Assembly (NCBI GenBank): GCA_944384905.1
Contig: CALWVE010000031.1
Location: forward strand, 1-64,000
Reading direction: 5' to 3'
Length of the DNA stretch: 64,000 nt
From: an uncultured Clostridia bacterium
Lineage (GTDB): Bacteria > Bacillota > Clostridia > Oscillospirales > Acutalibacteraceae
Below the pieces are notes generated by a model that saw only the letters and a list, made by a program, of their open reading frames with translations, did no database searches and had not been told where the DNA came from. A program made the translations under genes and the position numbers. This document shows, piece after piece, positions 38,054 to 45,564 of this stretch; positions within the stretch are counted from its first letter, which is position 1, and every line of letters begins with the position of its first letter.

Positions 38054-38629
38054 CTGGAAATAAGCGAACGCACGGATGAAGAACTGATCCGCCTGATTGC
38101 CCAAAAAAATAACGATGCTTTTGTGGAACTGGCGGCGCGTTATCTGTGGCTCATTCGTGCCAAAGCGCAGCAATGCGAAGTCCCGGCGTTTGATACCGAC
38201 GACTTATCGCAGGAAGGGCTGATCGGGCTTTATGATGCGGCTTTAACGTATAATCCAAACGGAGCCGCTTCGTTTAAGACCTATGCCGGCATTTGTATTT
38301 CCAATCGCATCACGTCTGCTCTGCGTAAACAGACAGGTCTCAAAAACAAACCTCTTAATGATTTTGTCTCGATTTTCGATGATGACAATGCCGCCGGTCT
38401 CCAGACGGGTGATTTGGAATCGACGATTTTGTTCAGGGAAATGATTACAGGTGTGTTGAGCCAGGTTAAACATCTTCTCTCCGAGCAGGAACAAAAGGTT
38501 CTTCGGATGTATCTCGGAGGATATAATAGGAAAGAGATCGCGCAGGCACTTTCTGTATCCCTTAAGTCCGTCGATAACACCATCCGGCGTGTCCGCAGCA
38601 AATTTAAGCATCACCGCTGTGATGTTTAA
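38054..38629 (+). CDS. RNA polymerase sigma-70 family factor, SigH-like, probable CTG start
   Basis: The 191-residue protein has region 2 (DTDDLSQEGLIGLYDAALTY near residue 45, then FKTYAGICISNRI) and region 4 (LSEQEQKVLRMYLGGYNRKEIAQ, then SVKSVDN-type recognition helix KSVDNTIRRVRSKFKHH). The layout resembles SigH/Spo0H, which starts sporulation transcription. No ATG, GTG or TTG exists in frame between the stop at 38048 and GTG 38123, which would remove the conserved N-terminus ISERTDEELIRLIAQ. CTG 38054 lies 8-9 nt after AGAGGGTGG and would restore it. It is read from the promoter at 37980. Confidence 0.85.
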   Translation: MEISERTDEELIRLIAQKNNDAFVELAARYLWLIRAKAQQCEVPAFDTDDLSQEGLIGLYDAALTYNPNGAASFKTYAGICISNRITSALRKQTGLKNKPLNDFVSIFDDDNAAGLQTGDLESTILFREMITGVLSQVKHLLSEQEQKVLRMYLGGYNRKEIAQALSVSLKSVDNTIRRVRSKFKHHRCDV

Positions 38630-39008: not shown

Positions 39009-39068
39009 TCTCCTATCGGGAAATCTAATTTTGCTCTTTTACGGAAAAGCGCATAAACGGATCTTTGT

Positions 39069-39106
39069 AGCGATACAGCCAACCGGCTGTATCGCTTTTC
39101 CTTTTT
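39069..39106 (+). terminator. rho-independent terminator
   Basis: AGCGATACAGCC (39069-39080) pairs perfectly with GGCTGTATCGCT (39085-39096), followed by TTTCCTTTTTG. Confidence 0.92.
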
Positions 39107-39200
39107 GAAAAACTGTGTTTTTTAAGGTTTTCTGTAAAAGATACACTAAAAAAACGCGGAAGATTTTCCGTTAAACTATTTAAAAATAACGAAATGCCTC

Positions 39201-39229
39201 TTGCACTTCCACCACATGTAGTATATAAT
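39201..39229 (+). promoter_or_regulatory. sigma-A promoter of the uxaC operon, near-leaderless
   Basis: TTGCAC at 39201-39206 and TATAAT at 39224-39229 are 17 bp apart. Transcription should start near 39236, right at the GAGGTGAT ribosome-binding site, leaving a leader of about 14 nt. A CGGAA-gatt-TTCCG inverted repeat (39157-39170) about 30 bp upstream may be an operator. Confidence 0.75.
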
Positions 39230-39249
39230 CTGTGTTGAGGTGATATAAA

Positions 39250-40608
39250 TTGAATACAAATTATCTTATTTCTTCTGTTTCCGGTCAGAAGCTGTATGAC
39301 ACAGTGAAAGACCTGCCGATCATCGATTATCACTGCCATCTTTCTCCGAAAGAAATTTTCGAAGACAAGCTTTTCGACAACATCGGCGAAATGTGGCTGG
39401 GCGGCGACCACTATAAGTGGCGTTTGATGCGTGCCAGCGGCGTTGACGAGGAATACGTAACCGGCAGCGCTTCCTGGAAGGATAAGTTTATCAAATATGC
39501 CGAGTCCATCGAATTTGCTGCGGGCAACCCGCTGTATTACTGGACCAAAATGGAACTCGAGCAGTTCTTTGGCGTAACCGAACAGCTCACGGCTGCCAAT
39601 GCTGAAGAAATCTGGGAAAAGGCAAATGCCGTTATCTGCGAAAAGAAGCTTTCTCCCCGCAAACTGATCCTCGATTCCAAGGTTGAATTTATTGCCACGA
39701 CCGACGATATCTGCGACGATCTTTCCTGGCATGCCAAAATTAAAGATGACCCGACTTTTGCACCGGTTGTTACGCCGTCTTTCCGTTGCGACAACCTGCT
39801 GCTGATTCGTAAGCCGGATTATGCCGATTACGTAAAGAAGCTGTCCGGTGTTGTTGGTTTCGAAATCCAGTCCATGGACGATCTCGAAAAGGCCATCTGC
39901 CAGCGTCTTGATTTCTTCAAGGCCAATGGCTGCATCTTCACCGACGTAGGTATCGAATTCTTCCCGGATCATATCGGCACGAAAGAAGAAGCCGATCAGG
40001 TCTTTAAGGCTGCTCTCAAGGGCGAAGCCGTTTGCAACGAAGCTTATTATGGTTTTCTGGGCTATCTGGATGTTTTCCTGGGCTGTGAATATAAGAAGCG
40101 CGGTCTGACCATGCAGATGCACCTGGCCGTTAAGCGCAATGCCAACAGCGTTTTGGCTGCCAAACTGGGCGCCGATGTGGGTGTGGACTGCGTAGGCGAT
40201 ACGATCAGCGGCAACGCACTGATCAGCATTCTGGATGCGATCAACGTAAAGACCGGTCTGCCCAAGACCATCCTGTACACGCTGAATCCCTCCATGGCAA
40301 CTCAGCTTTCCAGCATTGCCGGCTGCTTCTCCAATGTTATTTTGGGTGCTGCCTGGTGGTTCTGCGATCATGTACGCGGCAACAAGGAACAGATCCGTGT
40401 GATTGCCGAAACGACTACGCTCAACACCTTCCTCGGCATGCTGACCGATAGCCGCAGCTTCCTTTCCTATGCTCGTCACGACTTCTTCCGTCGTCTGCTT
40501 TGCGACGTTGTGGGCGAATGGGTTGACAGAGGCGAATTTACCGCTGAAGCTGCCGAAAAAGTGGTTGCCGGCTGCTGCTATGGCAACGTAAAGAAAATCG
40601 TAGGCTGA
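39250..40608 (+). CDS. uxaC: glucuronate (uronate) isomerase
   Basis: UxaC converts glucuronate to fructuronate and galacturonate to tagaturonate. The 452-residue TIM-barrel metal enzyme has LPIIDYHCHLSPKEI near residue 27, GGDHYKWRLMRASGV near 55, and FCDHVRGNKEQIRVI near 370. The start is TTG 39250 with GAGGTGAT 6 nt upstream. It leads a five-gene island. The usual next steps (uxaB or uxuB, uxuA, kdgK, kdgA) are not beside it. Confidence 0.94.
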   Translation: MNTNYLISSVSGQKLYDTVKDLPIIDYHCHLSPKEIFEDKLFDNIGEMWLGGDHYKWRLMRASGVDEEYVTGSASWKDKFIKYAESIEFAAGNPLYYWTKMELEQFFGVTEQLTAANAEEIWEKANAVICEKKLSPRKLILDSKVEFIATTDDICDDLSWHAKIKDDPTFAPVVTPSFRCDNLLLIRKPDYADYVKKLSGVVGFEIQSMDDLEKAICQRLDFFKANGCIFTDVGIEFFPDHIGTKEEADQVFKAALKGEAVCNEAYYGFLGYLDVFLGCEYKKRGLTMQMHLAVKRNANSVLAAKLGADVGVDCVGDTISGNALISILDAINVKTGLPKTILYTLNPSMATQLSSIAGCFSNVILGAAWWFCDHVRGNKEQIRVIAETTTLNTFLGMLTDSRSFLSYARHDFFRRLLCDVVGEWVDRGEFTAEAAEKVVAGCCYGNVKKIVG

Positions 40609-40646
40609 TTTCATTTGGAGTTGTATTGAAATAGCGAGGTATCACG

Positions 40647-41423
40647 ATGCGATTTGGTTTTTGTTCGGATATAACCAATGCACCGGTTTTGAAGAAAATC
40701 GGCTACAATTACATCGAGTACAGCGTTAAAAATATGGTACAGCTCCCGGAAGAAACATTCCGGGAGCATGTCGCCATGCTTAAAGATCTGAATTTCTTTG
40801 CCGAAACGTTCAACTGTTTTTACAGCGATCAGATTGTAGTGGGGGAAGATATTACCCCGCCGGATATTCTGCGGGAATACACCGTAAGCGCAATGGATCG
40901 CGTTGCTCGTCTGGGCGGAAAAGTCGTGGTGTATGGCAGCAGCCGTGCCCGGAATATTCCGGAAGGCTTTTCCAAGGAACGTGCCTATGAGCAGTTCTGC
41001 CAGGCGGCACGAATGACAGGGGAAGCGGCCGCACCGTACGGCATTACCGTTGTGCTGGAACCGCTGAACATAAAAGAAACGAATTTCTTCCATTTGGTAG
41101 AAGAGGGAATTCAGATCGTTCGGGATGTTAACCATCCCAATGTGCAGCTGCTGGCTGATATGTATCATGTCTGCCAGATGAAAGAAGATTTTGCACAGAT
41201 TGTTTCGGCAGGACAAATGCTTCGGCATGTCCATATTGCCGAGCCGGAAAACCGGACGCCGCCCAGCTTTGAAGATGCATTCGATTATAATTTGTTTGCA
41301 CAGGCACTGCAAAAAGCAGGCTACAATGAGCGGTTAAGTGTGGAACCGACCATCCCGGAGGGTGAGTCGTTAGAACATGCGGCTGAGCGTGTTTTGCCGA
41401 TACTGAAAAAATATTTTTCATAA
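40647..41423 (+). CDS. sugar phosphate isomerase/epimerase family protein (TIM barrel)
   Basis: The 258-residue protein belongs to the AP endonuclease 2-like TIM-barrel family. Typical metal-binding places are TVVLEPLNIKE near residue 135 (Glu), LLADMYHVCQM near 172 (Asp, His), HVHIAEPENR near 195 (His), and LSVEPTIP near 232 (Glu). Members isomerise, epimerise or dehydrate sugars and keto-sugars. The substrate is unknown but should be linked to uxaC and the two dehydrogenases around it. It is 38 bp after uxaC. Confidence 0.88.
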   Translation: MRFGFCSDITNAPVLKKIGYNYIEYSVKNMVQLPEETFREHVAMLKDLNFFAETFNCFYSDQIVVGEDITPPDILREYTVSAMDRVARLGGKVVVYGSSRARNIPEGFSKERAYEQFCQAARMTGEAAAPYGITVVLEPLNIKETNFFHLVEEGIQIVRDVNHPNVQLLADMYHVCQMKEDFAQIVSAGQMLRHVHIAEPENRTPPSFEDAFDYNLFAQALQKAGYNERLSVEPTIPEGESLEHAAERVLPILKKYFS

Positions 41424-41441
41424 TACGAAAGGAATTTTATC

Positions 41442-42284
41442 ATGAGTGATTTTGTTCTTTCCGCTTTTGCCGATGAAGCCGGCAAAGAGGTAAGCGCCCA
41501 GATCAGCGCCATGGTGGATAACGGCATCCGTTATCTGGAAGTGCGCGGTGTAGGTGATAAAAATATTGTTGATCTCACGGTTGCGGAAGCTGCCGAACTG
41601 AAAAAGCAGCTGGCCGATCACGGCCTGTCCACCTGGTCGATCGGTTCCCCGATCGGTAAGATCAACATCGACGGTGATTTTGCCGCCCATGTGGAACAGT
41701 TTAAGCATGTGCTCGAGCTGGCCAATACGCTGGAAGCCGGCAACATCCGTATGTTCAGCTTCTTTATGCCCAAGGGCGAAGATCCGGCTCCGTACCGCAA
41801 TCAGGTTATCGAGCAGCTCGGCGTGCTGGTTGAAACCGCTAAAGGTGCCGGCGTAGATCTGTGCCACGAAAATGAAAAGGGCATTTACGGCGACATTGCT
41901 TCCCGCTGCCTTGACATTCTGCAGAATGTTCCCGGCCTGAAAGCCGTATTCGATCCGGCTAACTTCATTCAGAGCGGCCAGGAAACCATGGAGGCTTGGG
42001 AAATGCTGCATCCGTACGTAAAGTACATGCATATCAAAGATGCCGTTGCTGCCGGTGACGTTGTACCGGCCGGTACCGGTGAAGGCCGCATTCCGGAATT
42101 ACTGCCGCTGTATGCTGCTCAGGGCGGTCGTGTGCTGACCATGGAGCCGCATCTGTTCGAGTTCTCCGGTCTTTCCGGTCTGGAACAGGAAGGCGAACGC
42201 AGCGTTGTGGGCAAGCTTTCCTTTGGCAGCCAGCGTGAAGCGTTTGATTATGCTGTGCAGGCGCTGAAAAAAATCACCGGCTGA
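41442..42284 (+). CDS. sugar phosphate isomerase/epimerase family protein (TIM barrel)
   Basis: The 280-residue protein has the same fold as its neighbour but low similarity to it. Metal-site motifs are VDLCHENEKGIYGD near residue 140 (Glu), KAVFDPANFIQSG near 168 (Asp), YMHIKDAVAAGDVV near 195 (His, Asp), and LTMEPHLFEF near 232 (Glu). The GTGEGRIPELL segment near 210 is common in this group. AAAGGA precedes the ATG. It is 18 bp after the previous gene. Confidence 0.88.
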   Translation: MSDFVLSAFADEAGKEVSAQISAMVDNGIRYLEVRGVGDKNIVDLTVAEAAELKKQLADHGLSTWSIGSPIGKINIDGDFAAHVEQFKHVLELANTLEAGNIRMFSFFMPKGEDPAPYRNQVIEQLGVLVETAKGAGVDLCHENEKGIYGDIASRCLDILQNVPGLKAVFDPANFIQSGQETMEAWEMLHPYVKYMHIKDAVAAGDVVPAGTGEGRIPELLPLYAAQGGRVLTMEPHLFEFSGLSGLEQEGERSVVGKLSFGSQREAFDYAVQALKKITG

Positions 42285-42299
42285 TTTTTCTGTCATATC

Positions 42300-42328
42300 C
42301 CGCGGGCTGCCCCGGCGGCAGTCCGCGG
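42300..42328. other. intra-operon hairpin
   Basis: CCGCGG and CTGCC (42300-42311) pair with GGCAG and CCGCGG (42317-42328). There is no T run, so it is probably an mRNA-stabilising or processing hairpin rather than a terminator. It precedes the first Gfo/Idh/MocA gene. Confidence 0.6.
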
Positions 42329-42351
42329 TTATTTAAAGGAGCAAGAGAATT

Positions 42352-43527
42352 ATGGAAAAAGTACGTCTTGGTATCATTGGCGTAGGTAATATGGGTTCCG
42401 GCCATGCTCGTAATATTATGGATGGCAAGTGCCCTGAGATTGAGCTGGCAGCTATTGCCGACATCAATCCCGAACGCATCAAATGGGCACAGGAGAATCT
42501 TCCTGAATCCGTTGAGAAATTCGATGATGCCTACAAAATGATGGACAGCGGCAAGATTGACGCTATTCTGGTAGCTGTGCCGCACTACGATCATCCCAAG
42601 TTTGCCATGGAAGGCTTTAAGCGCGGTCTGCATGTCATGGTGGAAAAGCCCGCCGGCGTTTACACCAAGCAGGTTGCCGAAATGAACGAAGCCTCCAAAA
42701 AGGCCAACGTTGTGTTCGGCATGATGTTCAACCAGCGCACCAACCACATCTATCGCAAAATGCGTGAGATCGTGAAAAGCGTCGAGATGGGCGCCATTAA
42801 GCGTACCTCTTGGATCATCACCAACTGGTATCGTCCGCAGGCTTATTACGATTCCGGCGCATGGCGTGCAACGTGGAGCGGTGAAGGCGGCGGCGTATTG
42901 CTGAACCAGTGCCCGCATAACCTCGACCTGTGGCAGTGGATTTGCGGCATGCCGGTTAAGGTAGACGCCAAGCTGCATTACGGCAAGTGGCACAACATTG
43001 AAGTTGAAGACGACGTAACCACTTATGTAGAATACGCCAACGGTGCAACCGGTACCTTTATCACCACGACGGCTGATTTCCCGGGTACCAACCGTTTTGA
43101 AATCACGCTGGAAAAAGGCAAGCTGATCGCCGAAGGCGACAAGCTCACCAAGTGGGAACTGGATGTCAGCGAACCTGAATTCTCCAAGACCAATACCATT
43201 CCGTTTGGTACGCCGAATGTGACGGAGACCGTTGTGGAAACCGACGGTGAAAATCCGCAGCATGTGGGTGTGCTGAATGCTTTTGCCGGCGCAATTCTGC
43301 GCGGCGAGCCGCTGGTGGCCAGCGGTACCGAAGGCATCAACGGCCTGACGCTTTCCAACGCCATGCATCTGTCTTCCTGGTTGGGTCGTCCGGTTGAGAT
43401 TCCGTTCGACGCTGATCTCTACTATGAAGAACTGATGAAGCGCGTAGCCACCTCCAAGCGCCGCACGGAAGTTCGTGCCGTTGTGGTGGATGATATGGGT
43501 TCCACTTATAACAGCGGCAAGAAATAA
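42352..43527 (+). CDS. Gfo/Idh/MocA family oxidoreductase (first copy)
   Basis: The 391-residue protein has a Rossmann fold with VRLGIIGVGNMGSGHARN at the start for NAD(P), the HVMVEKPAGVYTK motif near residue 95 with the catalytic-region Lys, and the substrate-side GGGVLLNQCPHNLDLWQW near 180. The family oxidises or reduces one sugar carbonyl, often at C3. It is about half identical to the next gene by eye, so the pair is a tandem duplication. AAAGGAG precedes the ATG. Confidence 0.92.
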   Translation: MEKVRLGIIGVGNMGSGHARNIMDGKCPEIELAAIADINPERIKWAQENLPESVEKFDDAYKMMDSGKIDAILVAVPHYDHPKFAMEGFKRGLHVMVEKPAGVYTKQVAEMNEASKKANVVFGMMFNQRTNHIYRKMREIVKSVEMGAIKRTSWIITNWYRPQAYYDSGAWRATWSGEGGGVLLNQCPHNLDLWQWICGMPVKVDAKLHYGKWHNIEVEDDVTTYVEYANGATGTFITTTADFPGTNRFEITLEKGKLIAEGDKLTKWELDVSEPEFSKTNTIPFGTPNVTETVVETDGENPQHVGVLNAFAGAILRGEPLVASGTEGINGLTLSNAMHLSSWLGRPVEIPFDADLYYEELMKRVATSKRRTEVRAVVVDDMGSTYNSGKK

Positions 43528-43546
43528 GTCTTTTGGGGGTGTTGTT

Positions 43547-44731
43547 TTGAATACAGTTCGAATGGGTGTTGTCGGTGTCGGCAATATGGGCAGTGCACAT
43601 GCCATGAATATGTTCACGGGCAAAATTGAACATATGCAGCTTGCCGCCATTTGTGATATCGATCCCAAAAAGCAGGAATGGGCAAAAGAAAATTTCCCTG
43701 GCGTACCGATTTTCTCCGATTATAACGAGATGTTTGCCAGCGGTTTGCTGGATGCCGTAATCGTAGCTACGCCGCATTATATCCATCCCGAAATTGCGGA
43801 AGCAGGCTTGGAAGCCGGGCTGCATGTCATTTCCGAAAAGCCGGCAGGTGTATTCACCAACCAGCTGACGGAATACTATGAAAAAGCCCGTAAGTCCGGT
43901 AAAGTCTTCGGCATTATGTTTAACCAGCGTACGAACCCGCTGTTCCAGAAAGCACGCGAAATTGTGCAGTCTGGTGAACTGGGTCAGCGCAAGCGTCTGG
44001 TCTGGATCATTACCAACTGGTACCGCAACCAGAAGTATTATGATTCCGGTACCTGGCGTGCAACCTGGAACGGGGAAGGCGGCGGCGTACTGCTGAATCA
44101 GGCTCCGCATAACCTGGATCTGTGGCAGTGGATTTTCGGTATGCCCAAGACGATCCGTGCTTTCTGCACCTGCGGTAAATATCACAATATCGAGGTAGAA
44201 GACGATGCGACCATCTACGCCGAGTACGAAGACGGCGCAACGGCTACCTTTATCACGACAACCGGTGACTATCCCGGCACCAACCGCCTGGAAATTACGG
44301 GCGATCGCGGAAAGATTGTACTTGAAAACGGCAAGCTGACCTTCTGGAAGCTGCCGATTCCTGAACGTGAATTCTGCTTTGATCCTGAGGGAAACAAGCC
44401 GACTCCCGAAGTGATCGAATATGTTCCCGATACCAAAGAAACCGCTCATATCGGTATTCTTCAGAATTTCACCAACGCAATTTTGTTTGATGAGCCGTTG
44501 CTTGCTCCCGGTTTTGACGGTATCAACGAACTGACCATTTCCAACGCAGCTTATCTTTCCAGCTGGACGGATAACAGCAAGGTTACGCTGCCGATTGACG
44601 CAGATCGCTATGAAGAACTGCTCAAGGAAAAGGTTAAAAAGTCGATTGAAGAACAGGGTAAAAAAGAATTTACCGGTACGATTTCCGATACGGCGGGCAA
44701 GTTGATTGACCGCTGGAGCGTGAATTGGTAA
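43547..44731 (+). CDS. Gfo/Idh/MocA family oxidoreductase (second copy)
   Basis: The 394-residue paralogue of the previous gene shows VRMGVVGVGNMGSAHAMN at the start, HVISEKPAGVFTN near residue 95, and GGGVLLNQAPHNLDLWQW near 182. The TTG at 43547 is chosen as start because it aligns with the first copy and follows GGGGGTG; ATG 43562 is the alternative. Two related dehydrogenases together could carry out an oxidation and a later reduction on the same sugar ring. It ends at a strong terminator. Confidence 0.92.
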   Translation: MNTVRMGVVGVGNMGSAHAMNMFTGKIEHMQLAAICDIDPKKQEWAKENFPGVPIFSDYNEMFASGLLDAVIVATPHYIHPEIAEAGLEAGLHVISEKPAGVFTNQLTEYYEKARKSGKVFGIMFNQRTNPLFQKAREIVQSGELGQRKRLVWIITNWYRNQKYYDSGTWRATWNGEGGGVLLNQAPHNLDLWQWIFGMPKTIRAFCTCGKYHNIEVEDDATIYAEYEDGATATFITTTGDYPGTNRLEITGDRGKIVLENGKLTFWKLPIPEREFCFDPEGNKPTPEVIEYVPDTKETAHIGILQNFTNAILFDEPLLAPGFDGINELTISNAAYLSSWTDNSKVTLPIDADRYEELLKEKVKKSIEEQGKKEFTGTISDTAGKLIDRWSVNW

Positions 44732-44760
44732 AAATTCTGCCTGTTTCGGCCTTTCTTTTC

Positions 44761-44798
44761 GGAGGCGCTGCAATTTTATTTGCAGCGTCTCCGTTTTT
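44761..44798 (+). terminator. rho-independent terminator of the uxaC island
   Basis: GGAGGCGCTGCAA (44761-44773) pairs with TTGCAGCGTCTCC (44780-44792) with one G-T pair, followed by GTTTTTG. Confidence 0.9.
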
Positions 44799-44859: not shown

Positions 44860-45564
44860 ATGTACCGATACGATCTGCATGTTCATACCAGCGAGGCCAG
44901 CCGATGCGGCCGCAGCCCGGCAAAAGATATCGCAAGAGCCTATGCCGATGCGGGTTACGACGGAATCGTGATTACCGATCATTTTATTCACGGGAATACG
45001 GCTGTTTCCGAAGAACTCCCATGGAAAGAACGAATGCAAGCTTATGAAGCTGCCTGCCTTTCTGCCCGAGAAGAAGGCGCCAAACGTGGACTGGATGTCC
45101 TCTTCGGAATCGAACATCGTTTTGGAGACGGGGGAAAGGAAGTCTTGGTTTACGGAATTTTGCCGGAAACTTTGGCGCTTCACCCGGAAATTGAAACAAT
45201 GGAAATTGAAGCATTCTGCCACTTTATGCATCAAAACGGCGCCTACATTTCGATGGCGCATCCGTTTCGAAAAAAGCCCTATATCCCGCAGCCGGGCGTT
45301 TCCGTTGACCCGTCTTTGCTGGATGCGCTGGAAGTGTATAACGCCGGCAATCGTGACGATGAAAACTTCCGGGCGCTCTATTATGCCTGTCGCCATGGTT
45401 TGGGGATGACTTCGGGCGGCGACGTGCACGACGCCGAAAGCGAACAGATTGGTCAGGCCGGTATGCTGTTTTCGCGTCGAATTACCTCTGAAAAGGCGCT
45501 TGCTCAGGCATTGTTTGCCGGAGAAGGGCTGATTCTCAGCAACGGTACGCCGTGTGATGATTGA
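44860..45564 (+). CDS. PHP domain metal-dependent phosphoesterase
   Basis: The 234-residue protein has the PHP motifs YDLHVHTSEASRCGRS at the start, IVITDHFIHGN near residue 37, FGIEHRF near 85, ISMAHPFRKKPYIP near 130 and SGGDVHDAESEQIGQ near 185, which together bind three metals. PHP proteins hydrolyse phosphoesters such as histidinol phosphate or oligonucleotides; the substrate here is unknown. AAAGGAAGG precedes the ATG. It is separate from the second PHP gene at 49471. Confidence 0.87.
   Translation: MYRYDLHVHTSEASRCGRSPAKDIARAYADAGYDGIVITDHFIHGNTAVSEELPWKERMQAYEAACLSAREEGAKRGLDVLFGIEHRFGDGGKEVLVYGILPETLALHPEIETMEIEAFCHFMHQNGAYISMAHPFRKKPYIPQPGVSVDPSLLDALEVYNAGNRDDENFRALYYACRHGLGMTSGGDVHDAESEQIGQAGMLFSRRITSEKALAQALFAGEGLILSNGTPCDD

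Follow-up and report, generated by a model that had tools for sequence, protein, structure and literature searches.

A uronate isomerase operon with two TIM barrels and two Gfo/Idh/MocA dehydrogenases, a putative 3-keto glucuronidase module of an uncultured Clostridia bacterium

Among the closest described systems is a four-enzyme operon of Agrobacterium (GlycDH-AtOGE-AtHYD-Gfo), in which two oxidoreductases and two TIM barrels act on a glucoside substrate (PMC10628242). The succession of oxidation, elimination, hydration and reduction has been proposed for this operon as well as for the PUE and levoglucosan operons, and the site of AtOGE consists of a metal bound by His132, Asp163, His189 and, weakly, Glu233, with His134 as the catalytic residue (PMC10628242). 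Here we describe a five-gene cluster found in a window of 64,000 nucleotides (the whole stretch of DNA that was analysed), taken from a genome of 2.19 Mb in 42 contigs that is given as 100% complete. These genes probably encode a redox-neutral, non-hydrolytic 3-keto glucuronidase module joined to the first enzyme of hexuronate catabolism.

The five genes, all co-directional on the + strand between 39250 and 44731, lie where the first-pass annotation had placed them, and Pfam and NCBIfam confirm the family of each. The features are:

39069-39096, + strand: terminator-like hairpin that closes the upstream gene; 12 bp stem and T-rich tail, consensus match only
39250-40608, + strand: uxaC, glucuronate isomerase, 452 aa, TTG start after GAGGTGAT
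40647-41423, + strand: tim1, AP_endonuc_2 TIM barrel, 258 aa, epimerase-like, LEPL motif
41442-42284, + strand: tim2, AP_endonuc_2 TIM barrel, 280 aa; proposed 3-keto-uronide lyase and/or hydratase
42300-42328, + strand: GC-rich hairpin in the tim2-gfo1 gap; 12 bp stem, then TTATTT (weak T tract)
42352-43527, + strand: gfo1, Gfo/Idh/MocA dehydrogenase, 391 aa; proposed glucuronide 3-dehydrogenase
43547-44731, + strand: gfo2, Gfo/Idh/MocA dehydrogenase, 394 aa, TTG start; proposed 3-keto-glucuronate reductase or second 3-dehydrogenase
44760-44793, + strand: terminator-like hairpin at the operon end; 14 bp stem, then TTTTTGTTTT

The shared direction, the short intergenic gaps (38, 18, 67 and 19 bp, from uxaC to gfo2) and the flanking terminator-like hairpins agree with the single operon originally proposed, whose start we place 3′ of the hairpin at 39069-39096, which closes the upstream gene. 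The caveat is the hairpin at 42300-42328, inside the set, a possible attenuator or processing site that could let the dehydrogenase genes be regulated apart from the rest. This gap is also where many related operons have an OGE-like gene. It had been stated that the cluster lacks a transporter and the usual uronate enzymes other than uxaC, and both absences hold; kdgA/kdgK-like genes, two uxuA genes and a second uxaC are found elsewhere in the genome. Long antisense ORFs over the operon (e.g. 39025-40614, minus strand) were discarded, since it is the sense frames that match curated families. The operon is preceded by a SigH-like sigma factor gene (38123-38629, below the SigH equivalog cut-offs) and, directly 3′ of its terminator, is followed by a PHP-type metallohydrolase gene (44860-45564; CehA/McbA model at 1e-13, below cut-off).

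The product of uxaC matched Pfam UxaC (PF02614) at 5e-157 and the glucuronate isomerase equivalog NF002794 with 496 bits (cut-off 387). Its best PDB match was the glucuronate isomerase 3iac (5e-101), with which it shares the HxH motif (HCHLSP) and the TDSRSFLSY region. Compared with most of the operon-borne uxaCs in its clade, the window uxaC shows 53-59% identity, a value that drops to 42% for the second uxaC of the same genome, which lies in an apparent uxaC-uxaB-uxaA operon (the uxaB label was given by inspection, and the NCBIfam match of the uxaA-labelled gene is galactarate dehydratase, below cut-off). The kdgA-like gene is of the KDPG-aldolase type and adjoins the KdgK-like gene, while no SDR mannonate oxidoreductase (uxuB) scored above cut-off in this genome. 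Seven GH2 C-terminal domain matches were also detected, so ordinary glycosidases, possibly including a beta-glucuronidase, may be present. Inspection further revealed a kduI/kduD-like pair (L200, 4802-6496) and a kdgA-kdgK-cupin cluster (L201, 7005-9510) in the same genome, suggesting the use of unsaturated uronates.

Both dehydrogenases carry the N- and C-terminal GFO_IDH_MocA Pfam domains, and both had as best PDB match 8tdi, "P2B11 Glucuronide-3-dehydrogenase", with 346 bits for gfo1 (2e-102; next chain 116 bits) and 345 bits for gfo2 (5e-102; next chain 119 bits). The operon hence holds Gfo/Idh/MocA enzymes homologous to a named glucuronide 3-dehydrogenase. Each is about 46% identical to 8tdi, gfo1 being aligned over most of its length, and the motifs EKPAG, NQRTN, WRATW and GGGVL.NQ.PH.LDL are shared with it; K99, N185 and H189 of gfo1 are conserved in the family. 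Meanwhile, DgpA (7xr9) was a distant match (6e-12 to gfo1, 5e-17 to gfo2), and the top NCBIfam model for both was inositol 2-dehydrogenase, with 101 and 115 bits against a cut-off of 355. A tree of 110 dehydrogenases places gfo1 and gfo2 in two separate clades of 56 and 39 members (support 0.99 each) and joins P2B11 with one gene from contig C24 of this genome (60% identity over residues 55-390) and one from genome G168. Thus gfo1 and gfo2 are members of the P2B11 family in the broad sense, not direct orthologues. The G168 gene adjoins an OGE-like gene, with uxaC, SDR uxuB and tim2 nearby. Of 295 genomes sampled from the order, 120 had P2B11-family dehydrogenases (E up to 1e-60). The P2B11 enzyme is probably described in a Nature 2024 study of 3-keto glycosidases; our literature search on glucuronide 3-dehydrogenases, which did not reach that source study, returned nothing useful.

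The gene on contig C24 belongs to a second module (L173, 8374-9240 and 9320-10582), where this closest relative of P2B11 accompanies an OGE-like TIM barrel and adjoins an AraC-type gene. Further clusters of Gfo and TIM-barrel genes were observed at L199 (5762-8440), L035 (7832-10905), L036 (7748-9746) and L058 (1964-4778), and the genome looks rich in such modules.

The two TIM barrels matched AP_endonuc_2 (PF01261) at 1e-27 (tim1) and 1e-21 (tim2). The best PDB match of tim1 was 2zvr, TM_0416 of Thermotoga (4e-17), which we take to belong to the 5-keto-L-gluconate epimerase family; against the model of that family (IolO, NF041099), tim1 scored 87 bits, with a cut-off of 300. For tim2, no close solved relative was found by sequence or fold search. 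Sequence searches gave only weak matches, to Art22 and AsbF, also when a profile of 35 sequences was used, and the fold search with its AF2 model (pLDDT 91.9) retrieved Art22, IolI, AsbF and ketose 3-epimerases, with AtHYD further down among many. These fold matches indicate the general superfamily only, so they do not assign the step, and neither measure links tim2 specifically to AtOGE or AtHYD.

Five residues of tim2 (E143, E145, D171, H197 and E235) are invariant across 35 sequences, the first two within an invariant HENEK segment. Judging from the superfamily, E143, D171, H197 and E235 would bind a divalent metal, giving the dehydrogenases a TIM-barrel partner with such a site. If E143 binds metal, E145 would place a glutamate at the position of the catalytic histidine of the OGE/CGE lyases. 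The IolE-like TIM barrel of related operons is a relative of AtOGE: it matched 8bvk at 5e-28, followed by 8tcs/8tcd/8tct, and by length and motif we judge 8bvk to be AtOGE. Its HNH motif is invariant in 50 sequences and D160, H186 and E227 are conserved, in agreement with the AtOGE site. No OGE-type lyase with this H-x-H pair was found in the window operon, and the OGE-like copies of this genome lie on contigs C41 and C24. Either tim2 would itself be the lyase, or it would be a hydratase with the lyase acting in trans.

Homologues of tim2 were present in 33 of 60 relatives (E up to 0.001), and most of the strong ones adjoin a gfo1-type gene. Scanning GTDB genomes yielded 80 tim2 loci, mostly from gut and rumen Clostridia MAGs. 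A gfo1/gfo2-type gene occurred in 63 of these, both types in 26 and an OGE-like gene in 31, counts that describe tim2 neighbourhoods rather than an independent sample of all Gfo genes, since the loci were chosen through tim2. The presence of tim2 in every locus follows from this selection, so it does not decide between lyase and hydratase. When uxaC, uxuA, SDR-type uxuB, kdgA and kdgK were scored near tim2, 74 strong matches (>150 bits) were obtained in 32 of the 80 loci, 72 of them sharing the strand of tim2 and 70 lying no more than 5 kb from it; a looser threshold raised the loci to 33, and the 48 loci that had no strong match include contigs that end within the neighbourhood. The survey of other genomes that had been suggested as a check shows relatives that join the same genes and the full hexuronate pathway in one apparent operon. 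Full operons of the form uxaC-uxuA-uxuB(-kdgA-kdgK)-tim2-OGE-gfo1-gfo2 were found at L087, L105, L107, L127, L136 and L138, usually beside a divergent AraC-type gene. Locus L116 (uxuA-tim1-uxuB-tim2-gfo2-gfo1) has no OGE match, like the window operon, and tim1 is placed between uxuA and uxuB both there and at L106.

In two genomes, tim2 and gfo1 are fused. The fusion of G015 is a single frame of 673 aa (L048, 6299-8320, minus strand) near an SDR mannonate oxidoreductase gene, and that of G286 spans 676 codons (L204, 8683-10710, minus strand) beside OGE, uxaC and uxuB genes. These fusions favour a tim2 protein that handles the direct product of gfo1.

Gene content, family membership, the conserved clustering with uronate genes and the tim2-gfo1 fusion are read directly from the sequences. 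In the proposed route, which follows the succession put forward for the Agrobacterium, PUE and levoglucosan operons (PMC10628242), Gfo1 would oxidise C3 of a bound glucuronide with NAD+, after which the aglycone would be eliminated and hydration and reduction would follow. The tim2 protein would act as 3-keto-uronide lyase and/or hydratase and be the core partner of the dehydrogenase, and Gfo2 (or Gfo1) would convert 3-keto-glucuronate into D-glucuronate using the NADH formed. D-glucuronate would be handed to the operon's own UxaC, yielding D-fructuronate, and the later enzymes (UxuA, KdgK, KdgA), encoded elsewhere in the genome, would complete the route. The order of reactions, the assignment of TIM barrels to steps, the substrate and the reduction of fructuronate in this genome are what we infer.

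A 3-keto glycoside route feeding the uronate isomerase had already been suggested by the first-pass annotation, and the 8tdi match and the relatives' operons with a full hexuronate pathway lend it support at the sequence level. We favour the glucuronidase reading because both dehydrogenases match 8tdi far above the next PDB chain, because uronate genes cluster on the tim2 strand in related loci, several of them with a full hexuronate operon, because tim2 and gfo1 are fused in two genomes, because the genome holds a kdgA/kdgK-like pair and two uxuA genes, because the window uxaC is closer to operon-borne uxaCs than to the second uxaC, and because the Agrobacterium operon pairs two oxidoreductases with two TIM barrels (PMC10628242). 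Counted against it are the C24 gene, closer to P2B11 than gfo1 and gfo2, which are no direct orthologues; the missing OGE-type lyase, E145 in place of the catalytic histidine and the lack of a close solved tim2 relative; the SDR mannonate oxidoreductase, not above cut-off in the genome, and the operon's lack of a transporter; and the tim2-based choice of loci, 48 of 80 of which have no strong uronate-gene match.

Should the module's substrates be inositol or uronates in free or keto form, the Gfo proteins would be inositol- or uronate-type dehydrogenases and the Tim proteins ketouronate epimerases or isomerases feeding UxaC or downstream steps. We find this unlikely: inositol 2-dehydrogenase is indeed the first NCBIfam model for both Gfo proteins, the nearest family to tim1 is that of 5-keto-L-gluconate epimerase and tim1 sits between uxuA and uxuB in two loci, but all such models score far short of their cut-offs, in contrast to the 1e-102 match to 8tdi, and the cluster, consisting of uxaC, two TIM barrels and two dehydrogenases only, is devoid of the ring-opening hydrolase of the inositol route. 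Of the substrates first suggested, glucuronides are backed by the 8tdi match and the hexuronate operons, and inositol-like compounds gained no specific support. A redox glycosidase of broad specificity that acts on neutral glycosides, with uxaC a mere neighbour or serving a minor substrate, is quite unlikely. Two dehydrogenases and two TIM barrels are combined in known 3-keto systems that use glucosides (PMC10628242), and many related loci have tim2 and gfo1 with no strong uronate genes nearby; however, the same-strand linkage of uxaC, uxuA, uxuB, kdgA and kdgK seen at 32 of the 80 loci, together with the uronate genes next to both fusions, is difficult to account for unless a uronic acid is formed.

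We consider a C-glycoside (C-glucuronide) deglycosidase of the DgpABC/CarABC kind very improbable. The analogy with C-glycoside breakdown drawn at the outset stands for the general parts, a Gfo/Idh/MocA oxidase with TIM barrels, but is a looser one, since both Gfo proteins are far from DgpA and the DUF6379 partner, already noted as absent from the cluster, has no match (PF19906, CGDB) in the whole genome. Membership in the DgpABC/CarABC systems, with their DgpBC-type deglycosidase, was rejected because of this absence, and nothing in the sequence match lists of tim1 and tim2 bore the name of a C-deglycosidase TIM subunit.

When bacteria free glucuronic acid from drug, steroid and plant conjugates, beta-glucuronidases are usually credited with the step, and inhibitors target those hydrolases. 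Operons related to the putative glucuronidase module are widespread in gut Clostridia. We tentatively raise the possibility that gut Clostridia share a widespread, dedicated operon that cleaves glucuronides independently of beta-glucuronidase, by 3-oxidation and elimination, and supplies the hexuronate pathway; tim2 would then represent a novel class of 3-keto-uronide lyase, acting with neither an OGE nor a DUF6379 partner. If true, such a redox route would be missed by glucuronidase annotation and would not be expected to respond to beta-glucuronidase inhibitors. With P2B11-family dehydrogenases in 120 of 295 genomes, a small gene set is enough to test directly which organisms cleave glucuronides in the gut.

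Compared with known systems, the operon shares parts with each. Thermotoga TM_0416 (IolO family) is the closest solved relative of tim1, although tim1 lies far below the IolO cut-off and the cluster has no inositol-specific gene. With DgpABC/CarABC it has in common 3-oxidation by a Gfo/Idh/MocA enzyme followed by a TIM-barrel lyase, but its dehydrogenases are distant and it has no DUF6379 partner. Both dehydrogenases match P2B11 (8tdi) at about 1e-102 with common motifs, although they are 46% identical to it and in separate clades and the C24 gene is nearer. Like the Agrobacterium operon, it has two oxidoreductases and two TIM barrels; the OGE-type TIM (HNH) is not in the window operon, whereas uxaC is not among the four Agrobacterium genes. 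As for the ketogenic hexuronate pathway (UxaC-UxuB-UxuA-KdgK-KdgA), only uxaC is in the window cluster, with two uxuA and kdgA/kdgK-like genes elsewhere and no SDR uxuB above cut-off, but this uxaC belongs fully to its family, and related operons also include uxuA, uxuB, kdgA and kdgK.
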